From contig NZ_CP012945.1 of the NCBI RefSeq assembly GCF_001402915.1, positions 1,837,501 to 1,901,500 on the forward strand: DNA of 64,000 nucleotides, read 5' to 3'. The stretch is from Devosia sp. A16 (GTDB lineage: Bacteria; Pseudomonadota; Alphaproteobacteria; Rhizobiales; Devosiaceae). Of the stretch, positions 1,684-34,607 are shown in pieces. A program made the position numbers and the translations under genes. Under the pieces are notes generated by a model. The model was not told where the DNA came from, did no database searches, and was given only the letters and a program-made list of their open reading frames with translations. The number at the start of each line of letters is the position of its first letter. Within the stretch, counting starts at the first letter, position 1.

Positions 1684-1697
1684 TTGATTTCCGTCAA
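1684..1697 (-). promoter_or_regulatory. FNR/FixK-type box
   Basis: TTGATTTCCGTCAA matches TTGA-N6-TCAA. Its centre is 59.5 nt upstream of the small membrane protein start at 1631, and it overlaps the stop codon of the flavodoxin gene. Confidence 0.75.
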
Positions 1698-2182
1698 ACC
1701 GCGGCTCCGGCTCTCAGTCGGCCGGCGAATTCGGCGATCTTCTCGCTCAGGGCAGGACCGCGCACCTCCTCCTCGCGGAAGATCCGGCTTGCCTGCCCCT
1801 TCGATCCGGCGGCGACCTGCATCTCGGCCAGGGCCGGCTCGGGCGGCGAGCTGGGGCTGGTGCCGCGACAGGTAAGAAAGACGGCGGTGGCGTCTGCCGC
1901 CGGCAGCTTCTGCATCGCGCTCAGCACCGGCGGCGCCGCGCGCGCCGCCCAGACCGGGCCGCCGACCACCACCAGGTCGTAATGCGCATCGCGGGGCGCG
2001 ACGACGGTCACGCGTGGACGGTGCCGTGTGAAGATGTCCCAGGCCATGGCGACGGGCCCATACCAGGCGAGGTACGTCTGGCAGGTGATCTCGGCCAGTT
2101 CGGCGCCCAGTTGCTCGGCGAGCGCCCTCGCAACCTTCTGCGTGTTCCCGGTATTGGAGTAATAGAGCACCAGCGCTGTCAT
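1694..2182 (-). CDS. Flavodoxin-family protein
   Basis: This 162-residue protein has the flavodoxin phosphate-binding loop near the N terminus (YSNTGNTQKVA, residues 8-18), a central VVVGGPVWAARAAPP segment where the FMN ring would sit, and a C-terminal LSEKIAEFAGRL helix. It is a likely FMN-binding electron carrier or small quinone/flavin reductase in the cytoplasm. The ATG has GGGAAG upstream. The box at 2235 is centred 59.5 nt upstream, shared with or divergent to the acetyltransferase gene on the other strand. Its redox partner is not evident from the sequence. Confidence 0.8.
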   Translation of the reverse strand: MTALVLYYSNTGNTQKVARALAEQLGAELAEITCQTYLAWYGPVAMAWDIFTRHRPRVTVVAPRDAHYDLVVVGGPVWAARAAPPVLSAMQKLPAADATAVFLTCRGTSPSSPPEPALAEMQVAAGSKGQASRIFREEEVRGPALSEKIAEFAGRLRAGAAV

Positions 2183-2234
2183 CTTCGGTCTTCCCGCGTT
2201 TCACCCACGGGAGCACGGCTCATCGCAGCCCGGC

Positions 2235-2248
2235 TTGATCTGGCTCAA
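2235..2248. promoter_or_regulatory. FNR/FixK-type box between divergent genes
   Basis: TTGATCTGGCTCAA lies 59.5 nt (centre to start) before the flavodoxin gene and 99.5 nt before the acetyltransferase gene. It is the reverse complement of the boxes at 23266 and 32841. Confidence 0.8.
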
Positions 2249-2340
2249 GTCGCAGGGGCGCCCGCCGTGAAAAGGAAGCCTGCAGTTCCTGCAAACGAGC
2301 GGATGGCTATTCGGCGACCGCTCTCATCCCAGCGGTAGAC

Positions 2341-5016
2341 ATGACCATTCGGAACCTCGAGCAGTGCTTTCGTCCCAAGTCCGTCGCCGTGGTGGGGGCC
2401 TCGCAACGTTCCCAATCGGTCGGCGCGATCGTGCTCCGCAATATCCGCGCTGGCGGGTTCGCGGGCGCCATCTACCCGGTCAATCCAAAATACGAGCAGA
2501 TCGAGGGCATGGCCTGCTACCGCAACGCCGCGCAACTGCCCGAAGCGCCCGACCTGGCGGTGATCGTGACCCCGCCCCGCGCCATACCCGGCGTGATTGG
2601 CGAGCTCGGCAGCCGCGGTTGCAAGGCGGCCGTGGTGATCACCGCCGGCGTCGACGCGACGAGTGGGCTCAGGCAGGCCATGCTGGACGCGGCCCGGCCG
2701 CACCTGATGCGTGTCGTCGGCCCCAACACCATCGGCATGCTGTCGCCGCTGGTTTCGCTCAACGCCAGTTTTGCGCATCTGCCGGCGATGGCCGGCCGGC
2801 TGGGCCTCATCTCGCAATCGGGCGCCATCGTCAGCTCGATCGTCGATTGGGCAGCCGCCGAGCGGCTCGGCTTCTCCCAGTTGATATCGCTGGGCGACAT
2901 GGCCGATGTCGATGTCGGTGACTGCCTCAACTGGCTGGCGATGGACGCGGCGACCTCGACCATCCTGATGTATCTGGAATCGGTGCCCGAACCGCGCAAG
3001 TTCATGTCCGCCGCGCGCGCCGCCGCCCGCCTCAAGCCGGTGATCGCGGTCAAGCCCGGCCGGCATGGCGAGGCGGCCCGGGCCGCGATGACCCATACCG
3101 GCGCCCTCACCGGCTCCGATGCGGTGATCGAGGCCGCGCTCGGCCGCGCCGGCGTCATCCGGGTGCGGAACCTCGAGCAACTGTTCTATGCCGCCGAGGT
3201 CACGACCCGCTTCCGGCCGCTGAAGTCCGGCCGTCTCGGCATCGTCACCAATGGCGGCGGCGCCGGCGTGCTCGCCGTCGACGACCTGCTCGATCTGGGC
3301 GGCAGCCTCGCGACCCTCGGGCCCCGAACGATCGCGACGCTCGATGCGGCGCTGCCGGCGACATGGTCGCATGCCAACCCGGTCGACATTATCGGAGACG
3401 CACCACCCGATCGTTACACCGCCGCCGTCTCGGCCGTCGCGGCCGACGCGGCGGTCGACGTGGTGCTGGCGATGAACTGCCCGACCGCCCTCTCCTCCCC
3501 GCTCGACGCCGCCCTGGCCGTCGCCGGGCTCGCCAGCAACGGCACGATCGCCGGCAAACCGACGATCGGCTGCTGGCTCGGCAAGCAGACGGCCGAACCT
3601 GCCAGAAGCGCCCTGCGCGAGCGGGGCATCGTGGCTGTCGACACGCCGGCCGCGGCCGCCCAGGCGGTGGATTTCCTCACTCGCTGGTCGCGACTGCGCG
3701 AGCGGCTGGAGCGTGTCCCCCCAAGCGCCGGCACCGTGCAGAGCGACGCCGAACCGGTGCGATGCATCCTCGGCCAGGTTGCGCGTGACGGCCGGACGGT
3801 GCTGACCGAGCCCGAGGCCAAGGCGGTGCTCGCCGCCTACGGCATACCGGTGCCGGAAACGCGGACGGCCACGACCGAACAGGAGGTGGCCGACATCGCC
3901 ACCGAGCTGCTCGGGCGGCACGACACCCTGGTGGTGAAGCTGCTGGCTCGGCAGGTCACCCACAAATCCGACATCGGCGGCGTGGTCCTCGACCTGACGA
4001 GCCCGGAGCTGGCGCGCAAGGCCGCGGCAGCAATCCGCGCCAGGGCTTCGGCAGCCGGGCTCGCGGCGTTCGAGGGGTTCACGGTGCAGCCGATGATCCG
4101 CCGGCGGCACGCCCACGAGCTGCTGGTGGGGCTCAACACCGATCCGGGCTTCGGGCCCGTCATCGTCTTCGGCGCCGGCGGGGTTTCGGTCGAAGTCGTG
4201 CGCGACACGGCAATGGGCCTGGTGCCGCTCGACGAGGTGCTGGCGGGCGACCTGATCGATGCGACCCGCATCTCGCGGCTCATGGCGGGCTATCGCGACC
4301 AGCCGCCGGCCGCGCGGCCGGCAGTGATAGCGGCGCTGCTCTCGCTCTCGCAACTGGCGATCGAGCAACCGGGCATCGTGGCGATCGACATCAATCCGCT
4401 GTTGGTCGACGAAAGCGGCGCCGTGGCGCTCGATGCCCGCATCGAGATCGCACCCGACCGGCTCGGCGAGCCCGGGCCCAACCGGCGGCTGGCAGTTCGC
4501 CCCTACCCCTCGGGCTGGGAGCAGCGTGTCGACTGCGCCGGCCGCCGCTTCAACATCCGCCCGATGCGACCCGCGGATGCGGCGCTCTATCCCAGATTCC
4601 TCGAACGCGTGACCGCCGAGGACCTGCGTTTGCGTTTCCTCACCCCGATGCGGACGCTCTCGCAGGAAATGATCATCCGGCTCAGCCAGCTCGACTACGA
4701 TCGCGACATCGCGTTCGTCGCGCTCGAAGCCCAAACGGGAGACCTCGCGGGCATCAGCCGGTTCGCCTCCGATCCCGACCACCTGAGCGCCGAGTTCGGC
4801 ATCATGGTGCGGAGCGACCTGCACGGATTGGGGCTGGGCACGGCGCTGATGCGCCAGTTGCTCGACTATGCCCGGGCGGATGGGCTCGCCACGATCGAGG
4901 GAATGATCCTGAGGGAGAATGGCACCATGCTCGACCTCGCCGCCCGCATGGGGTTCTCCCAGGTTCCCGACAGCGAGCCGAACGAAACCGTCAGGGTGAG
5001 GCTGCAGCTCGGCTAG
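2341..5016 (+). CDS. Pat/YfiQ-type protein: ADP-forming acyl-CoA synthetase-like with GNAT domain
   Basis: The 891-residue protein has the order CoA-binding domain (from about residue 10, SVAVVGAS), succinyl-CoA ligase-like domain (about 150-290), ATP-grasp-like domain (about 480-700) and a C-terminal GNAT acetyltransferase domain (about 735-891, with the acetyl-CoA loop LHGLGLGTALM). Proteins of this architecture acetylate lysines, classically acetyl-CoA synthetase. The HTGALTGSD segment at H252 lies where ADP-forming synthetases carry their active-site His, so residual ligase activity cannot be excluded. An acetyltransferase under a low-oxygen box would shut down acyl-CoA synthetases when respiration stops; that is inference. 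It ends 23 nt from the convergent groEL. Confidence 0.85.
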   Translation: MTIRNLEQCFRPKSVAVVGASQRSQSVGAIVLRNIRAGGFAGAIYPVNPKYEQIEGMACYRNAAQLPEAPDLAVIVTPPRAIPGVIGELGSRGCKAAVVITAGVDATSGLRQAMLDAARPHLMRVVGPNTIGMLSPLVSLNASFAHLPAMAGRLGLISQSGAIVSSIVDWAAAERLGFSQLISLGDMADVDVGDCLNWLAMDAATSTILMYLESVPEPRKFMSAARAAARLKPVIAVKPGRHGEAARAAMTHTGALTGSDAVIEAALGRAGVIRVRNLEQLFYAAEVTTRFRPLKSGRLGIVTNGGGAGVLAVDDLLDLGGSLATLGPRTIATLDAALPATWSHANPVDIIGDAPPDRYTAAVSAVAADAAVDVVLAMNCPTALSSPLDAALAVAGLASNGTIAGKPTIGCWLGKQTAEPARSALRERGIVAVDTPAAAAQAVDFLTRWSRLRERLERVPPSAGTVQSDAEPVRCILGQVARDGRTVLTEPEAKAVLAAYGIPVPETRTATTEQEVADIATELLGRHDTLVVKLLARQVTHKSDIGGVVLDLTSPELARKAAAAIRARASAAGLAAFEGFTVQPMIRRRHAHELLVGLNTDPGFGPVIVFGAGGVSVEVVRDTAMGLVPLDEVLAGDLIDATRISRLMAGYRDQPPAARPAVIAALLSLSQLAIEQPGIVAIDINPLLVDESGAVALDARIEIAPDRLGEPGPNRRLAVRPYPSGWEQRVDCAGRRFNIRPMRPADAALYPRFLERVTAEDLRLRFLTPMRTLSQEMIIRLSQLDYDRDIAFVALEAQTGDLAGISRFASDPDHLSAEFGIMVRSDLHGLGLGTALMRQLLDYARADGLATIEGMILRENGTMLDLAARMGFSQVPDSEPNETVRVRLQLG

Positions 5017-5039: not shown

Positions 5040-6668
5040 TCAGAAGTCGCCGGCCATTTCGGGAGCGGGCTCACGTGCCTTGGGCTCCTCCGGTCCCTCG
5101 GTCATGGTCGCCTCGGTCAGCAGCAGCGTGCTGGCGACGCTCACCGCGTTCTCGAGACCGACCCGCACCACCTTGGTGGGATCGACGATCCCCACCTGCA
5201 GCAGGTCGACATAGGCCTTTTTTGCCGCGTCGAACCCGATGGCCCCCGTGCTTTCGAGCATCCGCGAAACGACCACGCCGCCATCGACCGCAGAGTTCTC
5301 GGCGATCTGTCGCGCCGGCGCCTCGAGCGCTCGCCGCAGGATCTGCAGCCCGGTGCGCTCGTCGCCCTCGGCTGCCGCGATCTCGGCATCCACAGCCGGG
5401 GCGCAGCGCAGCAGCGCCAGCCCGCCACCGGGCACGATGCCCTCGGCCACGGCTGCCTTGGTGGCGCTGATCGCGTCGTCGAGCGCGTCCTTCCTGGCCT
5501 TCATCTCGGCCTCGGTGGCGGCGCCGACGCGGATGACGGCAACGCCGCCGGCCAGCTTGGCGAGCCGCTCCTCGAGTTTTTCCCGATCGTAGTCGCTGGT
5601 CGTCTTCTTGATTTCGCGGCGCAGTTGCTCCGCCCGCCCGGTGATCGCCGCCTTGCTGCCCTTGCCGCCCACGATGGTGGTCGAATCCTTGTCGACCACC
5701 ACCCGGGTGGCCTTGCCGAGCATCTCGATCGTGACGTTTTCGAGCTTGATGCCGAGATCGTGCGAGACGACCTGTCCCCCGGTGAGGGTGGCGATGTCCT
5801 CGAGCATGGCCTTGCGCCGATCGCCGAAGCCGGGCGCCTTGACCGCACAGTTGCGAAACGTGGCGCGCAGGGTGTTGACGATCAGCGTCGCCAGCGCCTC
5901 GCCCTCGACGTCTTCGGCCACGATGAGCAGTGGTGCGCCCGACTTGGCTACCGCTTCGAGCAGGCCCAGCAGGTCGGTGAGACCGCTTACCTTGCCGTCG
6001 ACGATCAGCACCAGGGCATCCTCGAGCACCGCTTCCATCCGCTCGGGATTGGTGACGAAATAGGGCGAGATGTAACCGCGGTCGAACTGCATGCCCTCGA
6101 CCACCTCAAGCGTGGTCTCGGTGGTCTTGGCCTCTTCGACGGTGATCACCCCCTCCTCGCCCACCTTGTCCATGGCGTCGGCGACGATCCTGCCGACATC
6201 GGCGTCGTTGTGCGCCGAGATTGCCGCCACCTGCGCCTTCTCCTCGCGATTGCGGATCGGGCGGGACAGCGCCTTGAGCGCCGCGATCGCGGTTTGCGCC
6301 CCGCGCTCGAGTCCGCGCTTGAGATCGACGGCACTGGCCCCGGCGACGACGTTCCGCACGCCATCGGCGAACATGGCATGCGCGAGAACGGTCGACGTGC
6401 TGGTGCCGTCGCCGACGATGTCGCCGGTCTTTTCTGCCGCCTGCCGGAGCATGCGCGCGCCCAGGTTCTCCTCGGCGTTCTTGAGGCTGAACTCCTTGGC
6501 GATGGTGACCCCGTCATTGCAGACGATCGGCGCGCCCCACTTCTTTTCGATGAGCACCGATTTCGAGCGCGGCCCCAGGGTAATGCTCACCGCATCGGCC
6601 AGTTGCGTGGCCCCCCGGAGGATCCGCTCGCGCGCTTCGGACCGAAACAGCACCTGCTTGTACGGCAT
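5040..6668 (-). CDS. groEL: 60-kDa chaperonin GroEL, solo copy
   Basis: The 542-residue protein is a full-length group I chaperonin with the ATP-site segments [27 protein letters not shown] and [11 protein letters not shown], and the equatorial GGGLALLR segment. There is no groES beside it. The C terminus ends [10 protein letters not shown] rather than the GGM repeat tail of housekeeping GroEL, which suggests a specialised paralogue. I chose MPYKQVLF because AGGGG precedes that ATG, and because the longer frame would run back through the regulatory box at 6757. The box at 6726 is centred 64.5 nt upstream. The housekeeping groESL operon is presumably elsewhere. Confidence 0.93.
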
Positions 6669-6725
6669 GGCCACATTCCCCTGCTGGATTTGCCGCCAGT
6701 GTGGCGTCAACGCGCCTGGCCGGTT

Positions 6726-6739
6726 TTGATCGGCATCAA
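6726..6739 (-). promoter_or_regulatory. FNR/FixK-type box for groEL
   Basis: TTGATCGGCATCAA is a perfect TTGAT-N4-ATCAA palindrome. Its centre is 64.5 nt upstream of the groEL start and 31 bp from the next box. Confidence 0.85.
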
Positions 6740-6756
6740 GTGGCATCCGGCGGAAC

Positions 6757-6770
6757 TTGACCTCGATCAA
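6757..6770 (+). promoter_or_regulatory. FNR/FixK-type box for the cation ATPase operon
   Basis: TTGACCTCGATCAA is centred 67.5 nt upstream of the GTG at 6831. The identical 14-mer occurs at 10356 and 20506. Confidence 0.8.
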
Positions 6771-6830: not shown

Positions 6831-9338
6831 GTGAACACGATCGAAATGGAGCTTCTATCCGGCCTGACCAGCGCCGAGGCCTGGCGCAGACTCGGCGTGT
6901 ATGGCCCCAACAGCCTGCCCTCCGCCCGTCCCCCGACGTTGCGGGATCGGCTGCTGCGCCTGGTGCGGGAGCCCATGCTGATCCTCCTGCTGCTGGCGGC
7001 GGCCATCTATTTCGTTCTCGGCAGCATGGCCGAGGGCATCATGCTGATGCTCTTCGCCCTGTTCAGCATCTCGCTGATGCTGATCCAGGAGCGGCGGAGC
7101 GAGGACGCCCTCGCCGCGCTGCGGCAGCTCGCCGCCCCGATTGCCCGGGTGAGGCGCGACGGCGAGGACATGCGCCTCCCCGCTGCAGACCTGGTGCCCG
7201 GGGATCTGGTCATTCTCAACGAAGGCGAGCGCGTCCCCGCCGATGGCGTCATGCTGTCGGCCACCCAGCTGGCCATCGACGAATCGCTGCTCACCGGGGA
7301 AAGCGTACCCGTGGACAAGACGGTGTCGCCCACCGGCAATCGGGTGTTCGGCAGCACGCTCGTCGTCAGCGGCCACGGTATCGCCCGCCTGACCGAAACC
7401 GGTTCACGCACCGAAACCGGCAAGCTCGGCTCGTCCCTCGCGCGCATCGTGCCCGAGCAAACGCACCTGCAGCAGGCGACAGGCCGGCTCGTCCGCATCT
7501 TCGGCATCCTGGCCCTTGTCGTGTGCGGCGGCCTGGCGGTCTATTACGGGCTGGCGCGGCAGGATTGGACGCAGGGCATCCTTTCCGGCATCGCGCTCGG
7601 CATGGCGATGCTGCCCGAGGAATTCCCGGTGGCGCTGGCCATCTTCCTCGCCATCGGCAGCTGGCGGTTGGCGCAGGTCGGCGTCCTGGTGCGGCGCGCC
7701 GCGGCCGTCGAGGCCCTCGGCGCGACGACCTGCCTGTGCGTCGACAAGACCGGCACCATCACCGAGAACCGCATGCAGCTGCGCTATCTCGACGACGGCG
7801 CGACGCGGCTCGACGCGCGGCAGAAAGCCGTGCTGCCGGCCAGCTTCGTGCCTCTGCTGCGATACGCCCGCTATGCCTCCCGCCGCGGCGGCTACGATCC
7901 GATGGATCTGGCAGTGTTCGACCTCGCGGACAGCGTGCTGGCATCGGACCTCGACGAAGGCTTCGGACTGGAGCGGGAATACGGGCTGACGACCGCCCTC
8001 CTGGCCGTTTCCCAGGCGTGGCGCGACAGCCATGGCCGGCTGTTGGTGGCCACCAAGGGCGCCCCCGAAGCGGTGCTCGGCATGTGCCCGATGCAGGCTG
8101 AGGACGCCGCCTCGATGCTGGACCGCGCCCACGAGCTGGCAAGGCGCGGGCTGCGGGTACTGGCGGTGGCGGAGGCCGACTGGGACGCTGAGGGGTTACC
8201 CGACGATCCGCGCCAGTTCGCTTTCCGCTGCCTGGGCCTCCTCGCCTTCGAGGACCCGGTGCGCGCCAGCGTGCCGGCTGCGGTGGCCGCCGCCCATGCA
8301 GCGGGCGTTCAGGTCAAGATGATCACCGGAGACTTTCCGGCCACCGCCCGCAGCATCGCTGCCGATGCCGGCATTCCTCACGCCGAAATCGTCACCGGCG
8401 AGCAACTGCAGGACGCCGGCCCTGACCAGCTGCAGCAATGGGCCCGCACGGTCAGCGTCTTCGCCCGGGTGCGGCCCGAGCAGAAGCTTCAGCTGGTCGA
8501 CGCGCTGCAGGCCAATGGCGAGACGGTCGCGATGACCGGGGACGGCGTCAACGACGCGCCGGCGCTCAGATCCGCCGACATCGGGATCGCCATGGGCAGG
8601 CGCGGCACCGATGTAGCGCGCGAGGCCGCCGGAATCGTGCTGCTCGACGAGGATTTTGGCCGCATCATCGAGGGAATCCGGCTGGGGCGTCGGATCTTCG
8701 ATAACCTGCGCAAGGTCATCATCTACATTGCTGCAGTGCACGTCCCCATCGCCGGACTGGGCTTTCTTCCCGTGGTCCTCGGCCTGCCCGTCATCATCTG
8801 GCCGCTCCATGTCGTGGTCCTGGAAATGGTCGTCGACTCGATGTCCTCGCTCGCCTTCGAGGACACGCCGCCGGAGCCCGACATCATGTGCCGTCCGCCG
8901 CGCCGGCGCAGCGAGAGCGTCGCCGCGCTGCCGCAGCTGTTCTATGGCCTCGCACAAGGCACGGCGGTGCTCGTCGCGGCGTTCGGCATCTATGCGGGCG
9001 CCCTGGCTATCGGAGTCGACACCGATGTCGCGCGAGCCATGACGATCGTGACCACCATCATCGGCAACCTCGGACTGGTGCTCAGCAACTCGAGCCAGCA
9101 CTCGCTGTTCACCGGTACCCTGCCCCGCCCGCAGCCATTGTTCGTACCCATTGCCGGCGCTACGCTGACCCTGATCGTGCTGGCCCTCTACGTTCCGGCG
9201 CTGCGCGGGATCTTCTATTTCGGCCTGCCTTCCGTGATCGAGCTGGCTGTCGCCGCCGCCGCTGCCCTGAGCGCCTTCGTCCTCGTAGAGGCCGGCAAAC
9301 TGCTGGCGCCGGTACGGCGGATCGTCGGCGCCTTCTGA
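6831..9338 (+). CDS. P2-type cation-translocating ATPase (Ca2+-ATPase-like)
   Basis: The 835-residue inner-membrane pump has the actuator TGES motif (near residue 155), the M4 ion-site motif PEEFP (262-266), the phosphorylation motif DKTGT with D305, and the hinge motif [11 protein letters not shown]. An N-terminal cation-ATPase helix and six C-terminal membrane segments complete the P2 layout. The PEEFP motif resembles the PEGLP of Ca2+ and Mn2+ pumps, but the transported ion is not certain. The GTG start follows GGGGAG. The gene leads an apparent operon: the alcohol dehydrogenase starts 16 nt after it. The box at 6757 is centred 67.5 nt upstream. Pumps of this kind often sit with universal stress genes in microaerobic regulons. 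Confidence 0.88.
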
Positions 9339-9354: not shown

Positions 9355-10329
9355 ATGCGTGCCATGCGGTTGCACAAGGTCGGCAGTCCCCTGGTGCTCG
9401 ACGACATCCCCATCCCCACCCCGGCGCCGGACGAGCTGCTGATCAGGGTCACCGCCTGCGGCGTCTGCCGCACCGACCTGCACATCGTCGACGGCGACCT
9501 GCCGGCGCATCGGCTGCCCCTTGTGCCGGGGCACGAGATCGTCGGGCTCGTGGCGGCCGGTGCGGCGGGCTTCGCCGTCGGCGACCGGGTCGGCGTGCCC
9601 TGGCTTGGCGGCACCTGTGGGCAGTGCAGGTTCTGCCGCGCCGGACAGGAGAACCTCTGCGACCGGCCGCAATTCACTGGCTATGACCGCGATGGCGGCT
9701 ATGCGGAATACTGCGTCGCCCGCGCTGCCAACTGCGTGCCCCTGCCGCCCGCCGGGGACGACTCCCACCTTGCCCCCCTGCTCTGCGCCGGGCTGATCGG
9801 CTTTCGCTCCTACCGGCGGGCCGGCGAGCCGCAGCGCCTGGGTCTGATGGGCTTCGGCGCGGCGGCCCACATCATCACCCAGTTGGCCCATGCCGACGGC
9901 GTCGCGGTCTACGCTTTCACCAGGCCCGGCGATACCGGCGGCCAGTCCTTCGCCCGCGGTCTTGGCGCCGTCTGGGCCGGTGGGACCAACGAGCACCCCG
10001 CCGAAAAGCTCGATGCGGTCATCATCTTCGCGCCGGCAGGCGAGCTCGTACCGCTTTCGCTGCGGCTGGTGCGCAAGGGCGGCCGGGTCGTCTGCGCCGG
10101 CATCCACATGAGCGACATCCCGACATTTCCCTATGCCGACCTGTGGGGCGAGCGGGAGATCGCCTCGGTGGCAAACCTGACCACGGCGGACGCCACCGAG
10201 TTCTTTGCCCGCCTCGCATCGCTGAGACTGGAGACGACGGTGACACGCTATCGTCTGGACGACGCCAACCGGGCTCTGGCGGACCTCAGGTCCGGCTCCA
10301 TCAAGGGCGCCGCGGTGCTGTCGCCCTGA
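9355..10329 (+). CDS. Zinc-dependent alcohol dehydrogenase
   Basis: The 324-residue medium-chain dehydrogenase has catalytic zinc ligands in CGVCRTDLH and GHEIVG, a four-Cys structural zinc site (CGQCRFCRAGQENLC), and a Rossmann-like segment LGLMGFGAAAH. This segment departs from the usual GxGxxG, but comparable forms occur in this family. It would interconvert alcohols and aldehydes with NAD(P)H in the cytoplasm, plausibly to dispose of reductant when oxygen is scarce. The ATG follows GGAGG and lies 16 nt after the ATPase stop, so the two genes probably share the promoter at 6757. A second, different zinc dehydrogenase lies at 34676-35749. Confidence 0.88.
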   Translation: MRAMRLHKVGSPLVLDDIPIPTPAPDELLIRVTACGVCRTDLHIVDGDLPAHRLPLVPGHEIVGLVAAGAAGFAVGDRVGVPWLGGTCGQCRFCRAGQENLCDRPQFTGYDRDGGYAEYCVARAANCVPLPPAGDDSHLAPLLCAGLIGFRSYRRAGEPQRLGLMGFGAAAHIITQLAHADGVAVYAFTRPGDTGGQSFARGLGAVWAGGTNEHPAEKLDAVIIFAPAGELVPLSLRLVRKGGRVVCAGIHMSDIPTFPYADLWGEREIASVANLTTADATEFFARLASLRLETTVTRYRLDDANRALADLRSGSIKGAAVLSP

Positions 10330-10355: not shown

Positions 10356-10369
10356 TTGACCTCGATCAA
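10356..10369 (+). promoter_or_regulatory. FNR/FixK-type box for the SDR gene
   Basis: TTGACCTCGATCAA is centred 61.5 nt upstream of the ATG at 10424. It is identical to the boxes at 6757 and 20506. Confidence 0.8.
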
Positions 10370-10423
10370 GAGGCCCGCGGCGGTCGACTGACATTCTCGG
10401 CCGACTGCGGAAGGAGAAGTAGC

Positions 10424-11179: not shown

Positions 11180-11228
11180 GCCGGATGCGACGCCCGTGGG
11201 GTCGGCAGGCAGGATAAAGGATTCTCTT

Positions 11229-11930: not shown

Positions 11931-11953
11931 GGCCAAGGCCTCGCCCCGTTCAG

Positions 11954-25797: not shown

Positions 25798-26445
25798 ATG
25801 AACGACAGCAGCATCAGACAGAACATTCTCGACGAACTCGAATTCGAGCCGTCCATCGATGCCAATGACATTGGCGTTGCGGTCGAGGACGGCATCGTGA
25901 CCCTTTCTGGCCACGTGCCGAACTATAGCCAGAAGCAGGCGGCCGAACGGGTCGTCGCGCGGGTGAAGGGGGTTCGCGGCATCGCCGAGGAAATCGAGGT
26001 GCGCTATCCCGGCGGTTCCGGCGTTGCCGACGATGAAATCGCCAAACGCGTGCTCAATACCCTCAAGTGGGGAACCCTCGTTCCCGATGAGCGGGTGCAG
26101 GTAACGGTGCAGAAGGGCTGGGTCACGCTGACCGGCAAGCTCGACTGGAACTATCAGAAGGTCGGCGTCGCCAATGCCATCCGCGACCTAAAAGGCGTCA
26201 CCGGCGTCACCAACAAGATCGAACTCAAGCCGCAGGTGACTTCGGTCGATGTGAGGAAGCGCATTCAGGAGGCCCTCAAGCGCAGCGCCGAAATCGAAGC
26301 GCAGGACATCAAGATCGATGTCGCCGCCGACAAGGTGACGCTCAAGGGTCACGTCAAGACCTGGAACGAACGCTGGCTGGTCGAGGACACCGCCTGGGCG
26401 ACGCCCGGCGTCACCCACGTGTCGGATCAGCTGACTGTGGGCTGA
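25798..26445 (+). CDS. Protein with three BON domains
   Basis: The 215-residue protein is three BON domains in a row (about residues 3-70, 77-145 and 150-215), each with a GIVTLSGHV-like or GWVTLTGKL-like strand. BON domains bind phospholipid or other hydrophobic ligands and are common in OsmY-like stress proteins. There is no signal peptide, so unlike OsmY it is probably cytoplasmic. The ATG has a GTGGAG leader, and the box at 25713 lies upstream. A strong hairpin follows the stop. Confidence 0.9.
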   Translation: MNDSSIRQNILDELEFEPSIDANDIGVAVEDGIVTLSGHVPNYSQKQAAERVVARVKGVRGIAEEIEVRYPGGSGVADDEIAKRVLNTLKWGTLVPDERVQVTVQKGWVTLTGKLDWNYQKVGVANAIRDLKGVTGVTNKIELKPQVTSVDVRKRIQEALKRSAEIEAQDIKIDVAADKVTLKGHVKTWNERWLVEDTAWATPGVTHVSDQLTVG

Positions 26446-27489: not shown

Positions 27490-27869
27490 GATGTGCTCCG
27501 ATTTTTGGTATACTCGGGCTCACGGCGGCCTGTATGAAGGCCATCCGTCGATCCGAATACAGTTTCCACCCGCGCTTTATCCAGCCGGCTATCGGGATAT
27601 ACGTTCACAACTGGATCTCACCATTGACTTATGTCAATCTGCCAGCAATCGGACGCCAGCTTCCAGGAGCCCCCCAGACCATCGGTCGCCAGGCTCTCCT
27701 CGGGCAGGCCCACGCCGGCGCGGAACTCGCTGACGCCTGTGAACGGAAGCATCGTCGGGCCCGGCATGTTGATTGTAAATATAAGCAAGCGAGAAACGTT
27801 GGGAGGCGATTTTCTTCCGGTGCGAACTGGATTACTATTTGTTGAACAGTATGTCCGCAGGAGGATTGA
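27490..27869. other. Divergent intergenic region with one box
   Basis: This 380-bp stretch is A+T-richer than its surroundings and holds the box at 27624. A short minus-strand frame of 47-49 codons (about 27640-27780) lacks a ribosome site, and I do not call it. An A+T-rich patch (TTGATTGTAAATATAAG, about 27769-27785) could be part of the promoter of the outer-membrane protein gene. Confidence 0.45.
27624..27637. promoter_or_regulatory. FNR/FixK-type box, long palindrome
   Basis: TTGACTTATGTCAA extends to ATTGAC-N4-GTCAAT. Its centre is 141.5 nt from the secreted protein start and 239.5 nt from the outer-membrane protein start. Confidence 0.75.
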
Positions 27870-28583: not shown

Positions 28584-29411
28584 CTAGTTCGACATGAAGC
28601 GATGAACTGTTCGATCGCTGAGCAGGTCGCGCGTCATGCCGCCGAACAGCCACTCGCGCATCCGGCCGTGGCCATACCCGCCGGTGACGATGAGGTCCGC
28701 CTCCAGCTTGCTGGCCAATGCTTCCAGCGCCTCCGCCGGTCCGCCGCCCGAAGCGGGGACGGTGTCGGCCCTTGATTCGACGCCGTGGCGGCGCAACCAG
28801 CCAACCACGTCCTCGAGGCTGGCCTTCTCCTCGCCGAGGTCTGCCTCGTGGATGGTAGCGATGGTCACTTGGGTAGCCGCGAGCAGCAACGGCAGCGCAT
28901 CGACGATGGCGCGACGAGCCTCGCGGCTGTCCTTCCAGCCGACGACGATCCGGTTGGCCCTGATTTCAGACAGACCTACCCCGGCGATGATGACGGGACG
29001 CCCTGCTTTGACCAGCAACTCTCCGGTATCGATTGAACGATTTGGACTTCTGGTGGGCCCGCCGAAGTTCGATCCGGTGATGATCAGGTCGGCGCAGCGG
29101 GCGATCCGTGCCACCGTCGCGTTGGGTTGTCCTACATAGCCGCGCCAGGCGGCCGGGATGCCGGCCGGGACGGCTTTGCGGAACAGAGCCTCGAGCTGCG
29201 CCAGGCGGCCTTCGATGTCGCGCTGTTCCTGCTCGAACAGGAGGCCGACGGCGGCTGCGCCCTCATATCCCATCGCGGCGACGTTCGGCGCGGCCGCCGA
29301 GATGCCGATCAGGCCGGCGTCGAACCGCTTCGCCAGCCCTACCGCGCACCCGACCAGGGTGGGAGAGAACAGATCGATATCGACGTTCACCAGGATTTCG
29401 CGGACGTGCAT
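28584..29411 (-). CDS. Tandem universal stress protein
   Basis: The 275-residue protein has two Usp domains: the first from MHVREILVNVDIDLFS, the second from NRIVVGWKDSREARRAI (about residue 155), ending GGYGHGRMREWLFGGMTRD. As in the other tandem copies, the last nucleotide-site position is Gly. The ATG follows AGAGGA. It starts 13 nt after the DUF2267 gene and probably shares its promoter at 29916. Confidence 0.88.
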   Translation of the reverse strand: MHVREILVNVDIDLFSPTLVGCAVGLAKRFDAGLIGISAAAPNVAAMGYEGAAAVGLLFEQEQRDIEGRLAQLEALFRKAVPAGIPAAWRGYVGQPNATVARIARCADLIITGSNFGGPTRSPNRSIDTGELLVKAGRPVIIAGVGLSEIRANRIVVGWKDSREARRAIVDALPLLLAATQVTIATIHEADLGEEKASLEDVVGWLRRHGVESRADTVPASGGGPAEALEALASKLEADLIVTGGYGHGRMREWLFGGMTRDLLSDRTVHRFMSN

Positions 29412-29424
29412 CGGGACAATTCCT

Positions 29425-29862
29425 CTAGTTGGCGGCCGGCTCGGGCCACAAGGCGCGCAGCGGTTTCTGCAGTCCGTTGCGCATCTGGTTGAGCTGGCCG
29501 GGGGAGACGTGCTGGTTGAGCACGGAAAACACCGCCCCGATCTCGAGGTCGGGGTTGCGCAACGGATCGGCACGGAAGTGGGTCTGCACCGCGGCGACGA
29601 AGTCGTCCTTACCGTGCGGATGCCGAGGCGTGCCTGAGGGGTTCCAGCCCTCGTAGTAGATGCCGCGGACCAGCACCGGCAGTTGCGCTCCCAGATCTGC
29701 GGCCTGATCGGCGCCGACCCAGTCGCGCAACGCGTGAAGTGTGGCCCGCAGCAACCGATAGGCGTGGTGCCGGTCGTCGCAGCGGGCCGCCTGATCCACT
29801 TCATCGATCCAGATTTCGGCCTGGTGCGCCGCCGCATCGAGTACGGGAATGCCAACGGACAT
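29425..29862 (-). CDS. DUF2267-family protein
   Basis: The 145-residue soluble protein is Trp- and His-rich, with RHHAYRLLRATLHALRDWVGADQAADLGAQLP followed by GIYYEGWNPSGTP and a VFSVLNQHVSPGQLNQMRNGL segment. This is the DUF2267 pattern, a domain often seen with universal stress and BON proteins. The function is not known. The ATG follows AGGGAG, and the box at 29916 is centred 60.5 nt upstream. It heads an operon with the Usp gene and probably the 44-residue membrane protein. Confidence 0.82.
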   Translation of the reverse strand: MSVGIPVLDAAAHQAEIWIDEVDQAARCDDRHHAYRLLRATLHALRDWVGADQAADLGAQLPVLVRGIYYEGWNPSGTPRHPHGKDDFVAAVQTHFRADPLRNPDLEIGAVFSVLNQHVSPGQLNQMRNGLQKPLRALWPEPAAN

Positions 29863-29915: not shown

Positions 29916-29929
29916 TTGATGCGGGTCAA
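29916..29929 (-). promoter_or_regulatory. FNR/FixK-type box for the DUF2267-Usp operon
   Basis: TTGATGCGGGTCAA is centred 60.5 nt upstream of 29862 and 34 bp from the divergent partner box. Confidence 0.8.
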
Positions 29930-29949: not shown

Positions 29950-29963
29950 TTGATCCGCGTCAA
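29950..29963 (+). promoter_or_regulatory. FNR/FixK-type box for the PRPP synthetase gene
   Basis: TTGATCCGCGTCAA is centred 62.5 nt upstream of the ATG at 30019. It is identical to the box at 25656. Confidence 0.8.
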
Positions 29964-30018: not shown

Positions 30019-30981
30019 ATGCGCCTGTTCGCTCTTAAGGGATCGGACCGCCTGGGCGCCGCAGTCGCGGCACGCATGCACATCGAACTCGACCCGCTCG
30101 AGGAGCGGGAGTTTTCCGACGGAGAACACAAGTCGCGTCCGCTGGTCAGCGTGCGTGGCGAGGATGTTTTCGTGCTGCACACGCTGCATGGCGCCCCGCG
30201 ATCACCGGCCGAGCGGCTGTTGCGACTGCTGTTCTTCATCGCCACCTGCCGGGAGAATGGCGCGGCCCGCGTTACCGCGGTGACGCCCTACCTCGCCTTC
30301 ATGCGCAAGGATCAGCAGACCAAGCCGCGCGACCCGGTGACCTCGCGCTATGTCGCACAGCTGTTCGAGGCGGTGGGAACCGACATGGTCGTCACCATCG
30401 ACGTGCACAACGTTTCAGCCTTTCAGAACGCCTTCCGCCATAGCACGCTGCTTGGCATGCAGCACGCCTTCGTCCCCAGGATCAGGGAGCTGGTGGGGAC
30501 CGGCCGCATGGTACTGGTGTCGCCCGACGGCGGCGGCATCCGGCGCGTGCGCCAGCTGCAGGACGCCTACACCGCCGAGATGGGCGTCGCGGTCGAGCTG
30601 GCGATGCTGGAAAAGCACCGCAGCGATGATATCGTAACCGGCGGGCTGTTCGCAGGCGATGTCGCGGGCGCCGACGTCGTCATCCTCGACGATATGATCG
30701 CCAGTGGCGGAACGATGGTGCGCACAGCGCGCGCCTGCCGGCAGCGCGGCGCCCGGCATGTCCATGCCATGGCGACGCACGCACTGCTCACCACCGCATC
30801 CGAAGCGCTGTTCGCGCCGGAGATCGACACGATTACCGTGTCCAGCAGCGTACCGCTGTCGTTCGAGCGGGGCGCATTTGGCAAGCTGTCCGTCATCGAT
30901 TGCGCCCCGCTGCTGGCCGAGGCGATCGAGCGACTGCACGCCGGCGGATCGATCAACCGCCTGCTCAACCCCCAGCCTTGA
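30019..30981 (+). CDS. Ribose-phosphate diphosphokinase (PRPP synthetase) paralogue
   Basis: The 320-residue protein has the Prs fold: an N-terminal EREFSDGEHKSRPL strand-loop, HTLHG..SPAERLLRLLFFIATCRENGAARVTAVTPYLAF, a VTIDVHN segment where canonical Prs has DLH, and the PRPP loop VVILDDMIASGGTM where housekeeping enzymes read DDMIDTAGT. It should make PRPP from ribose 5-phosphate and ATP. The divergence suggests a specialised paralogue rather than the housekeeping prs. The ATG follows CGGGAG. Its 3' end overlaps the convergent kinase-like gene by 17 nt. Confidence 0.82.
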   Translation: MRLFALKGSDRLGAAVAARMHIELDPLEEREFSDGEHKSRPLVSVRGEDVFVLHTLHGAPRSPAERLLRLLFFIATCRENGAARVTAVTPYLAFMRKDQQTKPRDPVTSRYVAQLFEAVGTDMVVTIDVHNVSAFQNAFRHSTLLGMQHAFVPRIRELVGTGRMVLVSPDGGGIRRVRQLQDAYTAEMGVAVELAMLEKHRSDDIVTGGLFAGDVAGADVVILDDMIASGGTMVRTARACRQRGARHVHAMATHALLTTASEALFAPEIDTITVSSSVPLSFERGAFGKLSVIDCAPLLAEAIERLHAGGSINRLLNPQP

Positions 30982-31993
30982 AGCACTCCCGTTCGGCAAG
31001 ATCGAGATAGCGCGCCGCCTCGCCGGGCCACCGCTCGGCCTGCATTGGCACGGGATCGAGCAGATGGGCGACGCAGATCCGGGCCCTCAGTATGGCGCGG
31101 AACGCCCCGTAGGTGGCCAGCAGCCGCGGTTCGGGCTGTCCACCCAGATAGCCGTCGACGATGTCCAGCAGCACCGGGCGTACCCAGCTTGCTCCCAGAA
31201 ACTCGCACTCGAGGCCGAGATAGTTGACCTCGTCATAGGGATCGAGCAACCGCATGTTGCGGTCGAACTCCAGGCAGTCGATGATCTGCGGCGGGCGTGT
31301 CAGGCATACATGTTCGGGCCGCAGGTCGCCGTGCCCTTCCACGATCCAGCCGTTTGCGGCGCGCCCCGCGATGGTGGGGACGAACTCGGCGACAAGCACC
31401 TCGACCCGGCCCAGCAGCTGCTGCGCACGAGCTCGCGGCACCGGGCAATCCGCCCGCGTCAGCACCTGACGGTTGACGGCGGTCTCGGTCTGTAGATGTT
31501 CGAGATAGGCGCCAGCGTTGCGCCGCTCCGGCCGGGCCCCTGCATAGAACCGGCCGAGCACGGCTCCGACTTCGACGATGGCATCGGTGGTCAGGTGGCC
31601 GGCTAGCAGCCGCCTATCGAGCATGTCGCCCTCCGCCAGGCGCTCCATCTCGACCAGCCATTCAACTGTCTCACCGTCGCCGCTGAGGGTCAGCTCGCCA
31701 GTGCGAGTCAGCCGCAGCGGCACGAGCTTCCGATAGACGTGGGGCGCCAGCCGACGATTGAGCCGCAGTTCGTCCGCGCAATGTCGGCGACGCCGATCGA
31801 GCGTGCTGAAATCGAGAAACGGGTAGCGCACCGGCTTCTTGAACTTGTAGACGCGTTCGCCCGCGAGGAAGACCCATGACATATGGGTCTCGATAACGCG
31901 GACCGGGAGCTGGCCGGCATAGGCGTGCGTCGAGCCGAGGAAGCGAACCTTCTGCTCGGTCGTAACCACCTCGTCGCATGGTGGAGTGGTCAT
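30965..31993 (-). CDS. Aminoglycoside phosphotransferase-like kinase (COG2187 type)
   Basis: The 342-residue protein has a protein-kinase-like fold: YKFKKPVRYPFLDFS near residue 50 (a Lys typical of COG2187), the catalytic-loop-like VEGHGDLRPEHVC (about 215-227) and the metal-site-like IIDCLEFDRNMR. It lacks the extra P-loop domain found in longer members. The substrate is unknown; it is not a proven resistance gene. The box at 32053 is centred 66.5 nt upstream of the ATG, a spacing typical of this island. No strong ribosome site is visible. Confidence 0.78.
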   Translation of the reverse strand: MTTPPCDEVVTTEQKVRFLGSTHAYAGQLPVRVIETHMSWVFLAGERVYKFKKPVRYPFLDFSTLDRRRRHCADELRLNRRLAPHVYRKLVPLRLTRTGELTLSGDGETVEWLVEMERLAEGDMLDRRLLAGHLTTDAIVEVGAVLGRFYAGARPERRNAGAYLEHLQTETAVNRQVLTRADCPVPRARAQQLLGRVEVLVAEFVPTIAGRAANGWIVEGHGDLRPEHVCLTRPPQIIDCLEFDRNMRLLDPYDEVNYLGLECEFLGASWVRPVLLDIVDGYLGGQPEPRLLATYGAFRAILRARICVAHLLDPVPMQAERWPGEAARYLDLAERECFKAGG

Positions 31994-32052: not shown

Positions 32053-32066
32053 TTGATATGGCTCAA
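32053..32066 (-). promoter_or_regulatory. FNR/FixK-type box for the kinase-like gene
   Basis: TTGATATGGCTCAA is centred 66.5 nt upstream of 31993. Its ATATGG core contains the ATG that would start the CBS fragment on the other strand. Confidence 0.75.
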
Positions 32067-32365: not shown

Positions 32366-32379
32366 TTGACGCAGATCAA
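32366..32379 (+). promoter_or_regulatory. FNR/FixK-type box for the VOC protein gene
   Basis: TTGACGCAGATCAA is centred 100.5 nt upstream of the ATG at 32473, or 88.5 nt from the alternative ATG at 32461. Confidence 0.75.
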
Positions 32380-32472
32380 GACGCGAACCGCAGTCGACGC
32401 CAACCTGAAGCGTCCCCTGATGGCACGGCACTCGCCTTTGCCGTCGATCCCCGCCACGCGATGGAGGCAGGC

Positions 32473-32844
32473 ATGCCCGGTTTCATTCATGTCGACATCG
32501 GTGCCGATGACCCCCAGCGGGCCGCAGACTTTTACCGTCGAGTGTTCGGCTGGAAGGTTCGGAAGCTGGATGGTCCGGTCCCGTACTGGCTCCTGGTGCC
32601 ACCCGCTGGCGCTGGTGGCGGCATTGCCAGGCGCGAGCAGCCCTGGCAGACGGCAATCCCCACGATCGACGTCGCTTCGGCGGAGCAAGCGGCGCGGCTC
32701 GTCGTCGAACAAGGCGGCGAGATCATCGTCCCCAACACCACCATCCCCGGGGTCGGGAAGCTGTTCACCTTCAGGGACACCGAGGGCAACGTGCTTTCGG
32801 CGGTTGAGCTGGCGCTTGGCGACGCCCCGGCGCCAACTGGTTGA
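32473..32844 (+). CDS. VOC (glyoxalase/bleomycin-resistance fold) family protein
   Basis: The 123-residue protein has paired VOC modules: FIHVDIGADDPQRAADFYRRVFGWKV and, after residue 60, AIPTIDVASAEQAARLVVEQGG, with FTFRDTEGNVLSAVE at the end. His in FIHVDI and Glu near the end could be metal ligands. The reaction is unknown. I prefer the second ATG because GGAGG lies just before it; the first ATG contains that GGAGG. The stop codon lies inside the box that serves the next gene. Confidence 0.82.
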   Translation: MPGFIHVDIGADDPQRAADFYRRVFGWKVRKLDGPVPYWLLVPPAGAGGGIARREQPWQTAIPTIDVASAEQAARLVVEQGGEIIVPNTTIPGVGKLFTFRDTEGNVLSAVELALGDAPAPTG

Positions 32845-32854
32845 GCCAGATCAA
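32841..32854 (+). promoter_or_regulatory. FNR/FixK-type box for the SH3/crystallin protein gene
   Basis: TTGAGCCAGATCAA is centred 64.5 nt upstream of the ATG at 32912. It includes the stop codon of the preceding gene. Confidence 0.8.
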
Positions 32855-32911: not shown

Positions 32912-33553
32912 ATGACGCTCAACTTCGGCCTTGCCGCTGGCCTCGGTGTTGCGGCTATCGCTCTCTCGCCGGTGGCGGCCCTTGCCGTCGATGCCATGGC
33001 CACGGGCTCGGCAAACGTGCGGTCCGGCCCGGGAACCAGCTACTCGATCGTGGACACGCTCAGCAGCGGCGAGATGGTCGAGGTGGTCGAGTGCAACGGT
33101 TCGCAGACCTGGTGCCGCATCACGCATCCCGGACCCGACGGCTGGGTCTCCCGCAGTCTGCTCGGGGCTCCCGACAATGCCACCGACGGCGATGGCAACC
33201 AGGTACAGTTCGGCATGACGATGCCCTTGCCCGGCGGCGGCTCGATCACCTTCGGAACCCCCGGATACCAGCCGCCCCAGCCACCCCCGCCGCCGCCCGG
33301 CCCCAAGCAGGTCTGCGTCTATGACTTCGCGAACTATGGTGGACAGAGCGTCTGCGTCAACGCGGGCATGAGTGCCACCAACGTTCCAGGCTGGTGGAAC
33401 AACCGGGTCAGCTCGCTGAGAGTGTTCGGCGGCGCACATGTCCGGCTTTGCCAGGATCCGAACTTCGGCGGGTTCTGCAACGTGTTCGGCACCGACGTGC
33501 CCCAGCTTGGCGCGCCCCTCAACAACAAGTCCTCGTCCTATCAGGTCTGGTAG
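32912..33553 (+). CDS. Secreted protein with SH3b and beta/gamma-crystallin-like domains
   Basis: The 213-residue protein has a signal peptide (cut near residue 25), a bacterial SH3 domain (about 28-85: ANVRSGPGTSYSIVDTL and WCRITHPGPDGWVSRSLL), a proline-rich linker (PPQPPPPPPGP, about 120-130), and a C-terminal crystallin-like domain (VCVYDFANYGGQSVCV and VRLCQDPNFGGFCNVF). The last domain resembles peptidase-inhibitor I36/crystallin proteins, with Cys pairs suited to disulfides. SH3b domains often bind peptidoglycan. The box at 32841 is centred 64.5 nt upstream. A strong hairpin follows the stop. Confidence 0.85.
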   Translation: MTLNFGLAAGLGVAAIALSPVAALAVDAMATGSANVRSGPGTSYSIVDTLSSGEMVEVVECNGSQTWCRITHPGPDGWVSRSLLGAPDNATDGDGNQVQFGMTMPLPGGGSITFGTPGYQPPQPPPPPPGPKQVCVYDFANYGGQSVCVNAGMSATNVPGWWNNRVSSLRVFGGAHVRLCQDPNFGGFCNVFGTDVPQLGAPLNNKSSSYQVW

Positions 33554-33563: not shown

Positions 33564-33591
33564 GAGCGGCGCCCCGAGGCGGGCGCCGCTC
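33564..33591 (+). terminator. Hairpin terminator
   Basis: GAGCGGCGCCC and GGGCGCCGCTC form a perfect 11-bp stem with a 6-nt loop, 10 nt after the stop. No clear T-run follows. Confidence 0.6.
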
Positions 33592-33635
33592 AGCTTCGTC
33601 TGCCTTCGGCCCTTCCGGTCCCCCCCGGCACAACC

Positions 33636-34448
33636 TCAGCGCGCCATCAGCACGGCGATGTCGGCATGTGCAAGCACATGGCGGGTCGCGCCGCCGAGGA
33701 CCCATTCCCGAAACCGCGAATGCCCGTATCCGCCCATGACCAGCAGGCTGGCGTCGACCCGCCGCGCCTCGGCCAGCAGCGCCGCGCCGGCGCCGTCGGT
33801 CCCCGGCTCGGCGGCATGGACCACCGCTGCTATGCCGTGCCGGCTGAGATGGCGGGCAATGTCGCCGCCCGGCGCGGTTCCATCATCCTCGCGCACCACC
33901 AAGACGATCACCTGGCTGGCCTGCTCGAGCAGGGGCATGGCTTCGGCGACGGCACGGGCTGCCTCGCGGCTGCCGTTCCAGGCAACCACCACCGTCCCGA
34001 ACCCCTTGGGGGCTAGCCCGTCGGGCGGCACGAACAGCGAGGCCCGTCCGGACTCGAACAGCACCGACACTTCCATATGCACCTCGTCGGCCGGATCCCC
34101 GTAGGGTCGGGTGGCGACAAACAGATCCGCGGTACGAGCTTCATCGCTCAGGGCAGCCCCGGCGGTGCCCGACAATACATCCAGTCGGCGCACCTCGTGC
34201 GGCATGCCGAGCCGGTCGAAGCGTGCTGTCAGGCGCTCGAACGTTTGCGTCGCCTGGCTGTCGGACTCTTCGAACCATGCCTCCAACCCCACCATTCCCG
34301 CGGGGTCGCCGCCGATGACTTCCGGCAGCAGGTGCGTATAGAGCCCGGTCAGATGCGCCTGGAAGCGCTCGCTGAGGGTTTCGGCATAGGCCAGGCGAAC
34401 CTCGTCTTCCTCCGAGCCGGTGAGATGCACTGCAATATCCTTGATCAA
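33636..34448 (-). CDS. Tandem universal stress protein
   Basis: The 270-residue protein is the closest paralogue in the window of the Usp at 634-1464: both begin with I(K/N)DIA(V/I)HLTGS and have the order two Usp domains, with GTVVVAWNGSREAARAV and GGYGHSRFREWVLGGATRH in the second. The TTG start follows GGGAGACGAGA. No box lies at the usual distance; the nearest, at 34594, is 152 nt upstream (centre to start) and is better placed for the divergent dehydrogenase. Confidence 0.86.
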   Translation of the reverse strand: MIKDIAVHLTGSEEDEVRLAYAETLSERFQAHLTGLYTHLLPEVIGGDPAGMVGLEAWFEESDSQATQTFERLTARFDRLGMPHEVRRLDVLSGTAGAALSDEARTADLFVATRPYGDPADEVHMEVSVLFESGRASLFVPPDGLAPKGFGTVVVAWNGSREAARAVAEAMPLLEQASQVIVLVVREDDGTAPGGDIARHLSRHGIAAVVHAAEPGTDGAGAALLAEARRVDASLLVMGGYGHSRFREWVLGGATRHVLAHADIAVLMAR

Positions 34449-34593
34449 TCTCGTCTCCCATGGACGCTGTTGGCAGTTCGCTCCGGGCCGTGGCGACAAC
34501 CGCCACGCCCTGCTCACCACGGGCAACCCTCGCTGGTGCGGCGGCTGCGCCTCGCTGATCCCCCGCATAAACGCCTCCGCCAGGGGCTGGTCT

Positions 34594-34607
34594 TTGAGCT
34601 GGATCAA
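34594..34607 (+). promoter_or_regulatory. FNR/FixK-type box for the second alcohol dehydrogenase
   Basis: TTGAGCTGGATCAA is centred 75.5 nt upstream of the ATG at 34676. It is identical to the box at 25713 and is the last box in the island. Confidence 0.78.

Follow-up and report, generated by a model that had tools for sequence, protein, structure and literature searches.

Why are boxes of the pattern TTGA-N6-TCAA, the kind attributed to FNR- and FixK-type regulators, crowded into one stretch of the Devosia sp. A16 chromosome, and what do they control? We analysed a window of 64,000 nucleotides, bases 1837501-1901500 of the single 5.03-Mb contig (window positions are counted from 1), in which a first-pass annotation had noticed an island of such boxes among stress genes and had proposed that they form one survival programme. 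As read from the sequence, the boxes probably belong to a self-contained low-oxygen regulon of the FixLJ-FixK/FNR type that is laid out as one 70-kb gene cluster, a reading to which we give a probability of roughly 0.8.

Box density and promoter geometry

The scan of the 64 kb found 19 exact sites, the first at 1684 and the last at 34594-34607, all of them where the first-pass annotation had placed them. The chance level is 0.27 sites, with a maximum of 2 in 100 dinucleotide shuffles. From 34608 to 64000 the exact-pattern scan found no site, in agreement with the box-free right part (35.7-64 kb) described earlier. The genome as a whole holds 73 exact boxes, and the reversed pattern, used as a control, occurs 29 times. 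Twelve further boxes lie in the 36 kb to the left of the window, so the cluster reaches 36 kb past the window's left end. It spans 1801646-1872107 on the contig (70.5 kb, 1.4% of the genome length) and contains 31 of the 73 boxes, with none in the 16.6 kb to its left and none in the 38.9 kb to its right. The rest of the genome has 42 boxes in about 4.96 Mb, close to the background given by the reversed control. A similar density elsewhere, which the first-pass annotation had named as evidence against an island, is therefore not seen. The boxes on which it drew the island are real, but the true size is about twice as large and takes in a sensor, a regulator and a cbb3 oxidase.

The boxes also keep a regular distance from genes. 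The box centre lies 50-70 nt before a start codon supported by a Shine-Dalgarno sequence at 16 of the 31 cluster boxes, compared with 1.2 expected. At 13 of the 19 window sites the spacing is 56-68 nt, as claimed earlier for most boxes with a clear target (three of the start codons concerned have no clear Shine-Dalgarno sequence in a crude scan); at the other six, the nearest plausible start is about 75-141 nt away. What is more, in 17 of 27 gene-oriented promoters of the cluster the distance from the box centre to the beginning of a YANNNT hexamer is 28 or 29 nt, compared with 0-2 in each of nine other 4-nt windows. These 27 promoters have starts 50-84 nt away and come from 25 of the 31 sites, six sites contributing none; three of 30 oriented promoters, with starts 99-141 nt away, were left out of the count. 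This is where a class II FNR/FixK promoter, whose operator is at -41.5, has its -10 element, and by this measure the boxes sit in promoters with class II FNR geometry. When the whole genome was searched for a box plus a -10 element, 32 matches (17 + 15) were obtained, 21 of them in the cluster, and the reversed control gave 2. One of the 11 matches outside lies just upstream of another universal stress protein (Usp) gene (4788684), and a second, small group of box-plus-minus-10 promoters is found at 115437-117446 of the genome. Divergent gene pairs with one box for each gene are Cpn60/ATPase, Hsp20/BON and DUF2267/phosphoribosyl pyrophosphate (PRPP) synthetase.

Oxygen sensor and regulators of the cluster

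Locating the fnr/fixK homologues, which had been suggested as a check, placed FixL, FixJ, FixK and an FnrL-type gene all inside the cluster. Immediately left of the window, on the minus strand, are FixL (L003:17457-18998), FixJ (L003:16823-17464; NCBIfam NF006900, 297 bits, cut-off 255) and FixK (L003:15665-16321), with a small receiver-like protein of 119 aa and no Pfam match (L003:16403-16762) between FixJ and FixK. The PAS domain of FixL aligns to solved FixL heme domains (1d06, E 2.2e-58), including the His of the HDGY stretch, which we take to be the heme ligand; the full-length FixL equivalog score is 499, compared with a cut-off of 850. The best match of FixK in the PDB is FixK2 (4i2o), with which it shares an ETVSR recognition helix. 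The FnrL-type gene lies near the left end of the cluster, beside a HemN-type gene. Its product has the same ETVSR helix and an N-terminal Cys cluster, which FixK lacks, and a box is centred 57 nt before its start. Before the receiver-like gene next to fixK there is a box with one mismatch, followed by a -10 at +29; that this frame acts in FixT-like feedback is a guess.

In the mechanism that we propose, FixL, a heme PAS kinase, would sense the fall in oxygen and phosphorylate FixJ, and phosphorylated FixJ would raise FixK. Either jointly with the Fe-S regulator FnrL or in its place, FixK would bind TTGA-N6-TCAA centred at -41.5 and bring RNA polymerase to some two dozen promoters. Their products, namely the cbb3 oxidase, Usp, Hsp20, Cpn60, BON proteins, flavodoxins, dehydrogenases, a cation pump, a PPDK/PEP-synthase-type enzyme and PRPP synthetase with a kinase, would keep the cell alive when respiration stalls. 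We infer induction by low oxygen from the regulator families and, by analogy, from published work on Burkholderia cenocepacia and Bradyrhizobium, and we likewise infer which regulator acts at which box, survival as the outcome and the function of the kinase.

FixK-type and FnrL-type proteins should both read the same box, so that the sequence cannot tell FixK sites from FnrL sites. It is conceivable, though we would not bet on it, that the boxes belong to FnrL or to a third Crp/Fnr protein, for example one of the nitric oxide (NO)-sensing DNR/NnrR type, and that FixLJ-FixK has a smaller, separate job. The presence of the FnrL-type gene in the cluster, with its Cys cluster, its recognition helix and the box before its start, agrees with the first of these possibilities, but FixLJ-FixK is inside the cluster as well. 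The second draws support from a further Crp/Fnr gene at 2614401, which has boxes on either side at 2610785 and 2615356; a NO sensor fits poorly with the cluster proteins searched, among which no denitrification gene was noticed, although no search by name was made.

Recurrence, transfer and known systems

The marker used for related clusters is the kinase frame at 30965-31993 (minus strand), which has no Pfam or NCBIfam match at the cut-offs used. Its predicted model (mean pLDDT 94.4) resembles the choline kinase/aminoglycoside phosphotransferase (APH) fold (Foldseek best E 1.3e-6, TM about 0.5), and H221, D223, L224, R225 and D239 are invariant. A box at 32053-32066 (minus strand) is centred 66 nt before it, with a -10 at +28. 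Convergent with it is the gene for a PRPP-synthetase-like enzyme (30019-30981, plus strand), a divergent paralogue that shares about 33% identity with the other two copies in the genome, with its own box at 29950-29963 (plus strand, centre at 62 nt, -10 at +28).

Relatives were taken from a scan of genome contigs for kinase homologues, from which 80 of 363 confirmed loci (1.415 Mb) were kept; several are close kin, and the counts are not independent. These loci contain 337 boxes, whereas the most frequent of 23 other palindromes made up of these letters has 38 copies, and 68 of the 80 loci have at least one box. The YANNNT peak returns at +28/+29 (176 in the two positions compared with about 10 per position elsewhere), and 149 of the 337 boxes have a -10 on at least one side. 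For protein searches L045 was replaced by its whole contig and the plasmid locus L125 was added, giving 81 loci. PRPP synthetase was found at 60% coverage or more in 73 of these, and it lies within 300 nt of the kinase in 66, convergent in 65. Other cluster proteins recur less widely: phosphoribosyltransferase in 28 loci, the Usp type encoded at 22203 in 27, Hsp20 in 24, Cpn60 in 22, DUF2267 in 19, the PEP-synthase type in 17 and a second BON protein (BON2) in 15. Boxes precede Cpn60 in 20 of 22 cases and the 22203-type Usp in 27 of 32 with readable upstream DNA, compared with 32 of 88 for the kinase, 31 of 72 for PRPP synthetase, 10 of 24 for Hsp20, 4 of 27 for phosphoribosyltransferase and 2 of 9 for PfkB. 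We rejected the idea that a box stands before every gene, since the relatives' homologues, such as those of the last two families, often lack one.

Kinase homologues, down to about 31% identity among those listed, occur on 103 plasmid records, 19 of them typed as conjugative. Within 41 kb each, a Variovorax plasmid with several Usp, Hsp20 and BON genes has 9 boxes, a stretch of a Rhizobium binae plasmid 6 and one of a Paraburkholderia phymatum plasmid 5. A related core that has these boxes with this -10 spacing is found again in Alpha- and Betaproteobacteria, in some cases on plasmids.

These data bear on whether the cluster acts as a unit. Its density, its -10 spacing and the regulators that it contains uphold the single programme proposed earlier, but it encloses a block that has no box and carries a two-component system of its own. 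This block, together with a gene order that is reshuffled in comparison with a same-genus relative, would fit a clustering that is historical only, unrelated stress genes each being an ordinary FNR target and not acting as one unit. We consider this unlikely, the same families being found clustered with boxes in many genomes and on plasmids.

The boxes themselves are partly identical. The 14-mer TTGACCTCGATCAA occurs at 6757, 10356 and 20506, TTGATCCGCGTCAA at 25656 and 29950, TTGAGCTGGATCAA at 25713 and 34594, and TTGAGCCAGATCAA at 23266 and 32841 with its reverse complement at 2235, as an exact scan of the window confirmed for the copies reported earlier. This makes 8 identical pairs among the 19 window sites, compared with 1.2 expected (P about 0.0015, the six inner positions being taken as independent); all 31 cluster sites give 11 pairs compared with 3.2 (P 0.01), a modest excess. 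The eight window pairs are what a compositional or repeat artefact, such as a dispersed palindromic repeat, might leave, but such an origin is rejected with near certainty because the distances from the boxes to the -10 elements and to the start codons are fixed, and moreover the sequences flanking the boxes differ and the reversed pattern and the 23 other palindromes are rare. A rule that the TTGAT half of the box faces the gene was also rejected, as it held for 13 of 15 heterotypic sites here and for only 29 of 54 in 79 other loci.

Several observations weigh against a FixLJ-FixK/FNR regulon that covers the whole cluster. Neither regulator reaches its NCBIfam equivalog cut-off: FixK scores 173 of 300 bits with NF050806, a Caulobacter-type equivalog, and the FnrL-type protein 192 of 300. 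Upstream of fixK, no box was found within 260 nt. Ten HTH_Crp_2 proteins exceed the Pfam cut-off in the genome, so another regulator is possible. The -10 pattern and its window were chosen after the spacing profile in this genome had been viewed, and the independent check is provided by the 80 loci, several of them close kin; 10 of the 27 oriented promoters are without the -10 pattern. Twelve of the 80 loci are box-free, among them all 4 from Gammaproteobacteria and 3 of the 13 from Betaproteobacteria (the other 10 have a box), and of 380 homologues whose upstream DNA could be read, only 182 carry one. In this genome, no box of their own was found for PfkB, for the alcohol dehydrogenase (ADH) at 9355 or for the phosphoribosyltransferase. 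Finally, 10.1 kb inside the cluster (window 10370-20505) contain no box, and hence not every gene of the island is under the boxes. This block holds ApbE, a PepSY flavodoxin-reductase, DUF2271, a response regulator/histidine kinase pair and a P1B-type ATPase, and has the look of a module for flavin electron transfer and metals that is controlled separately.

The distribution of the cluster suggests horizontal transfer. The kinase marker is patchy, being found in 5 of 19 genomes of the genus, that of strain A16 included. The closest named homologues of one cluster protein are from Devosia, at 72% identity. In the kinase tree, six Devosia rows, including that of the window, form one supported group with one uncultured Rhizobiales row, and betaproteobacterial rows appear in at least two places, which weakly suggests transfer. 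The right edge of the cluster is marked by a tRNA-Ser(CGA) gene (35889-35978, minus strand) that is conserved with the following gene in 8 of 8 relatives examined. Beside the tRNA-Ser of these 8 relatives no box-rich island was found within the 0.3-15.2 kb available, and the same-genus relative with a homologous, reshuffled island carries it on a contig other than that of its tRNA-Ser. Three findings nevertheless speak against a clean empty site: in one relative, homologues of a short-chain dehydrogenase (SDR; 75% identity) and of the P1B ATPase (56%) lie at a distance of 10-14 kb from the tRNA, in one an ABC ATPase with 35% identity is within 0.5 kb of it, and in another there is one box 0.4 kb away. 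We rejected a classical integrase island with repeats at the tRNA end. No PF00589 integrase was found in the cluster, the nearest being at 1905555, and no 13-mer of the tRNA region has a second copy in 126 kb; with neither an integrase nor a tRNA repeat, transfer remains only suggested. The Phage_integrase-family (tyrosine recombinase) gene at 1905555-1905998 of the genome is about 32 kb to the right of the tRNA-Ser.

Judged from gene families, the Devosia cluster is a probable FixLJ-FixK/FNR regulon and belongs to a kind that has been described in a few other bacteria; we assign it to this kind because its families match those of the published lxa locus and of the microoxia-induced proteins of B. 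diazoefficiens. As far as the cited passages describe it, the lxa locus of B. cenocepacia J2315 (BCAM0275-BCAM0323) is a contiguous, low-oxygen-activated set of 50 genes that is absent from some strains such as H111 (PMC6127331, PMC4505428, PMC9104464, PMC3759415, PMC9733578). It includes six Usp, Hsp20, BON, a Zn-ADH, acetoacetyl-CoA reductase (an SDR) and phosphofructokinase (PMC6127331), and it contains the FNR-family gene BCAM0287, with FNR-box-like motifs at many microaerobically induced genes (PMC4505428). Compared by gene families alone, and within what those passages list, the Devosia cluster shares Usp, Hsp20, BON, Zn-ADH, SDR, PfkB and an in-locus FNR-family protein. It differs in also holding FixL-FixJ-FixK, an FnrL-type gene and a cbb3 oxidase, and in the prominence of Cpn60 and of PRPP synthetase with the APH-fold kinase. 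In B. diazoefficiens, according to the parts of the papers cited, Usp, cbb3, PfkB, GroEL, Hsp20, ADH, PRPP synthetase and HlyD-family proteins are induced by microoxia, some of them dependent on FixK2 (PMC6515984, PMC2908626). The FixLJ-FixK2 chain of sensor and regulators appears to be the same as in the Devosia cluster, but by our reading of the locus-tag numbers given there the genes are scattered over the genome and not in one 70-kb cluster. The closest plasmid parallel is pSF45436d (NZ_CP029234), a conjugative plasmid of Sinorhizobium fredii with Usp, Hsp20, PEP synthase, GroEL, PfkB and HlyD/FtsX/ABC genes, where the APH-fold kinase adjoins PRPP synthetase and 12 boxes lie in 41 kb; it differs in being plasmid-borne and in having no gene annotated FixL or FixJ in the 41 kb examined. 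The DosR dormancy regulon of Mycobacterium tuberculosis has a regulator family and an operator that differ from those of FixK/FNR. As a Usp-rich hypoxia regulon with alpha-crystallin and phosphofructokinase it offers an analogy only, drawn from the part of PMC6127331 in which it is compared with lxa.

The open-licence literature yielded papers on FixK2 and Fnr and unrelated ones, and in it we found no description of such an island in Devosia or of the gene core. The new points are the extent of the cluster, the control genes inside it and the conserved APH-fold kinase beside PRPP synthetase. The genes of low-oxygen regulons often lie far apart, but this cluster unites the sensor, the regulator, the terminal oxidase and the survival genes, which would allow the whole response to be removed in one deletion and its part in anoxic persistence to be examined. 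That rhizobia, Polaromonas and a conjugative plasmid carry the same core suggests that the ability to tolerate oxygen starvation can be passed on as a package, and it directs attention to an unnamed kinase family that is worth assaying. More speculatively, the cluster might be one of a widespread family of hypoxia-survival islands that spread horizontally among Proteobacteria and have in common a core of APH-fold kinase, PRPP synthetase, Usp, Hsp20 and Cpn60, many behind class II FNR boxes and some copies with their own sensor and regulator. The kinase and PRPP synthetase might then form a hypoxia-induced step of ribose/nucleotide salvage; we hold this broader proposal only tentatively.

Genes and boxes along the cluster

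Six Usp proteins are encoded in the cluster (genome 1828823-1829656; window 634-1671, 22203-23102, 23740-24258, about 28584-29424 and 33636-34664). Also encoded are Hsp20, Cpn60, two BON proteins, DUF2267, thioredoxin and hemerythrin, as well as PRPP synthetase, phosphoribosyltransferase, PfkB, a DeoC-type aldolase and a PPDK/PEP-synthase-type enzyme. To these are added two SDRs, two Zn-ADHs, flavodoxins and a GNAT/acyl-CoA-synthetase-like protein, and finally P-type ATPases, an HlyD/FtsX/ABC set, HemN, FixG and cbb3 oxidase subunits. We considered whether the cbb3 oxidase is broken, ccoN having been missed by the gene caller, and rejected this, as the frame is open and matches COX1.

At the left of the window, the box at 1684-1697 (minus strand, -10 at +28) probably serves the Usp gene at 634-1671 (minus strand; Pfam Usp 7.8e-13), whose true start is uncertain. 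The next box, at 2235-2248, lies between a flavodoxin-like gene (1694-2182, minus strand; Pfam Flavodoxin_4 1.7e-6), with its centre 59 nt from the start, and the acetyltransferase gene, 99 nt away, which encodes the acyl-CoA-synthetase-like protein with a GNAT domain (2341-5016, plus strand). The Cpn60 chaperonin (5040-6770, minus strand; Pfam 6.4e-65), with its start probably at 6668, has a box at 6726-6739 (minus strand, centre 64 nt from the start, -10 at +29), and the P-type cation ATPase (6831-9338, plus strand) one at 6757-6770 (plus strand, 67 nt, -10 at +28). Downstream are the Zn-type ADH without a box of its own (9355-10329, plus strand) and an SDR (10424-11179, plus strand) with a box at 10356-10369 (plus strand, 61 nt, -10 at +29).

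Past the box-less block, the box at 20506-20519 has a -10 on both sides, with its centre 57 nt from a Flavodoxin_2/NAD(P)H-FMN oxidoreductase (20519-21154, plus strand, start about 20570) and 41 nt from an AAA_28 ATPase (19926-20519, minus strand). On this left side an AAA_28 start at 20471 would coincide with the transcription start, making the message leaderless. Plus-strand frames at 21342-22062 resemble, by eye, pieces of an FAD/NAD-linked oxidoreductase in different frames, a possible gene remnant; the first piece has no Pfam match. The Usp gene at 22203-23102 (minus strand; Pfam Usp 8.6e-7; start probably 23009) has a box at 23062-23075 (minus strand, 59 nt, -10 at +28) and a second one upstream at 23096-23109 (93 nt). 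A box at 23266-23279 (plus strand) lies 56 nt before a 133-aa frame, and that at 24314-24327 (minus strand, 62 nt) serves the Usp gene at 23740-24258 (minus strand; Pfam Usp 7.4e-31). They are followed by the phosphoribosyltransferase (24324-25007, minus strand) and by Hsp20/alpha-crystallin (25074-25595, minus strand), which has a box at 25656-25669 (minus strand, 67 nt, -10 at +29) and stands divergent to a three-BON-domain protein (25798-26445, plus strand) with a box at 25713-25726 (plus strand, 78 nt).

The box at 27624-27637 is without a clear target, 141 nt from a 130-aa frame. The DUF2267 gene (29425-29862, minus strand) has a box at 29916-29929 (minus strand, 60 nt, -10 at +28); downstream of it, as in a relative, is a Usp-like gene with an uncertain start (28584-29424, minus strand). 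To the right of the kinase, a box at 32366-32379 (plus strand, -10 at +28) lies 100 nt upstream of a glyoxalase-like gene (32461-32844, plus strand), and one at 32841-32854 (plus strand, 64 nt, -10 at +28) serves a bacterial SH3-domain protein (32912-33553, plus strand). The last Usp gene of the window (33636-34664, minus strand; Pfam Usp 4.6e-12) has an uncertain start, and the last box, at 34594-34607 (plus strand), is centred 75 nt before a Zn-ADH (34676-35749, plus strand), with a -10 at +29.

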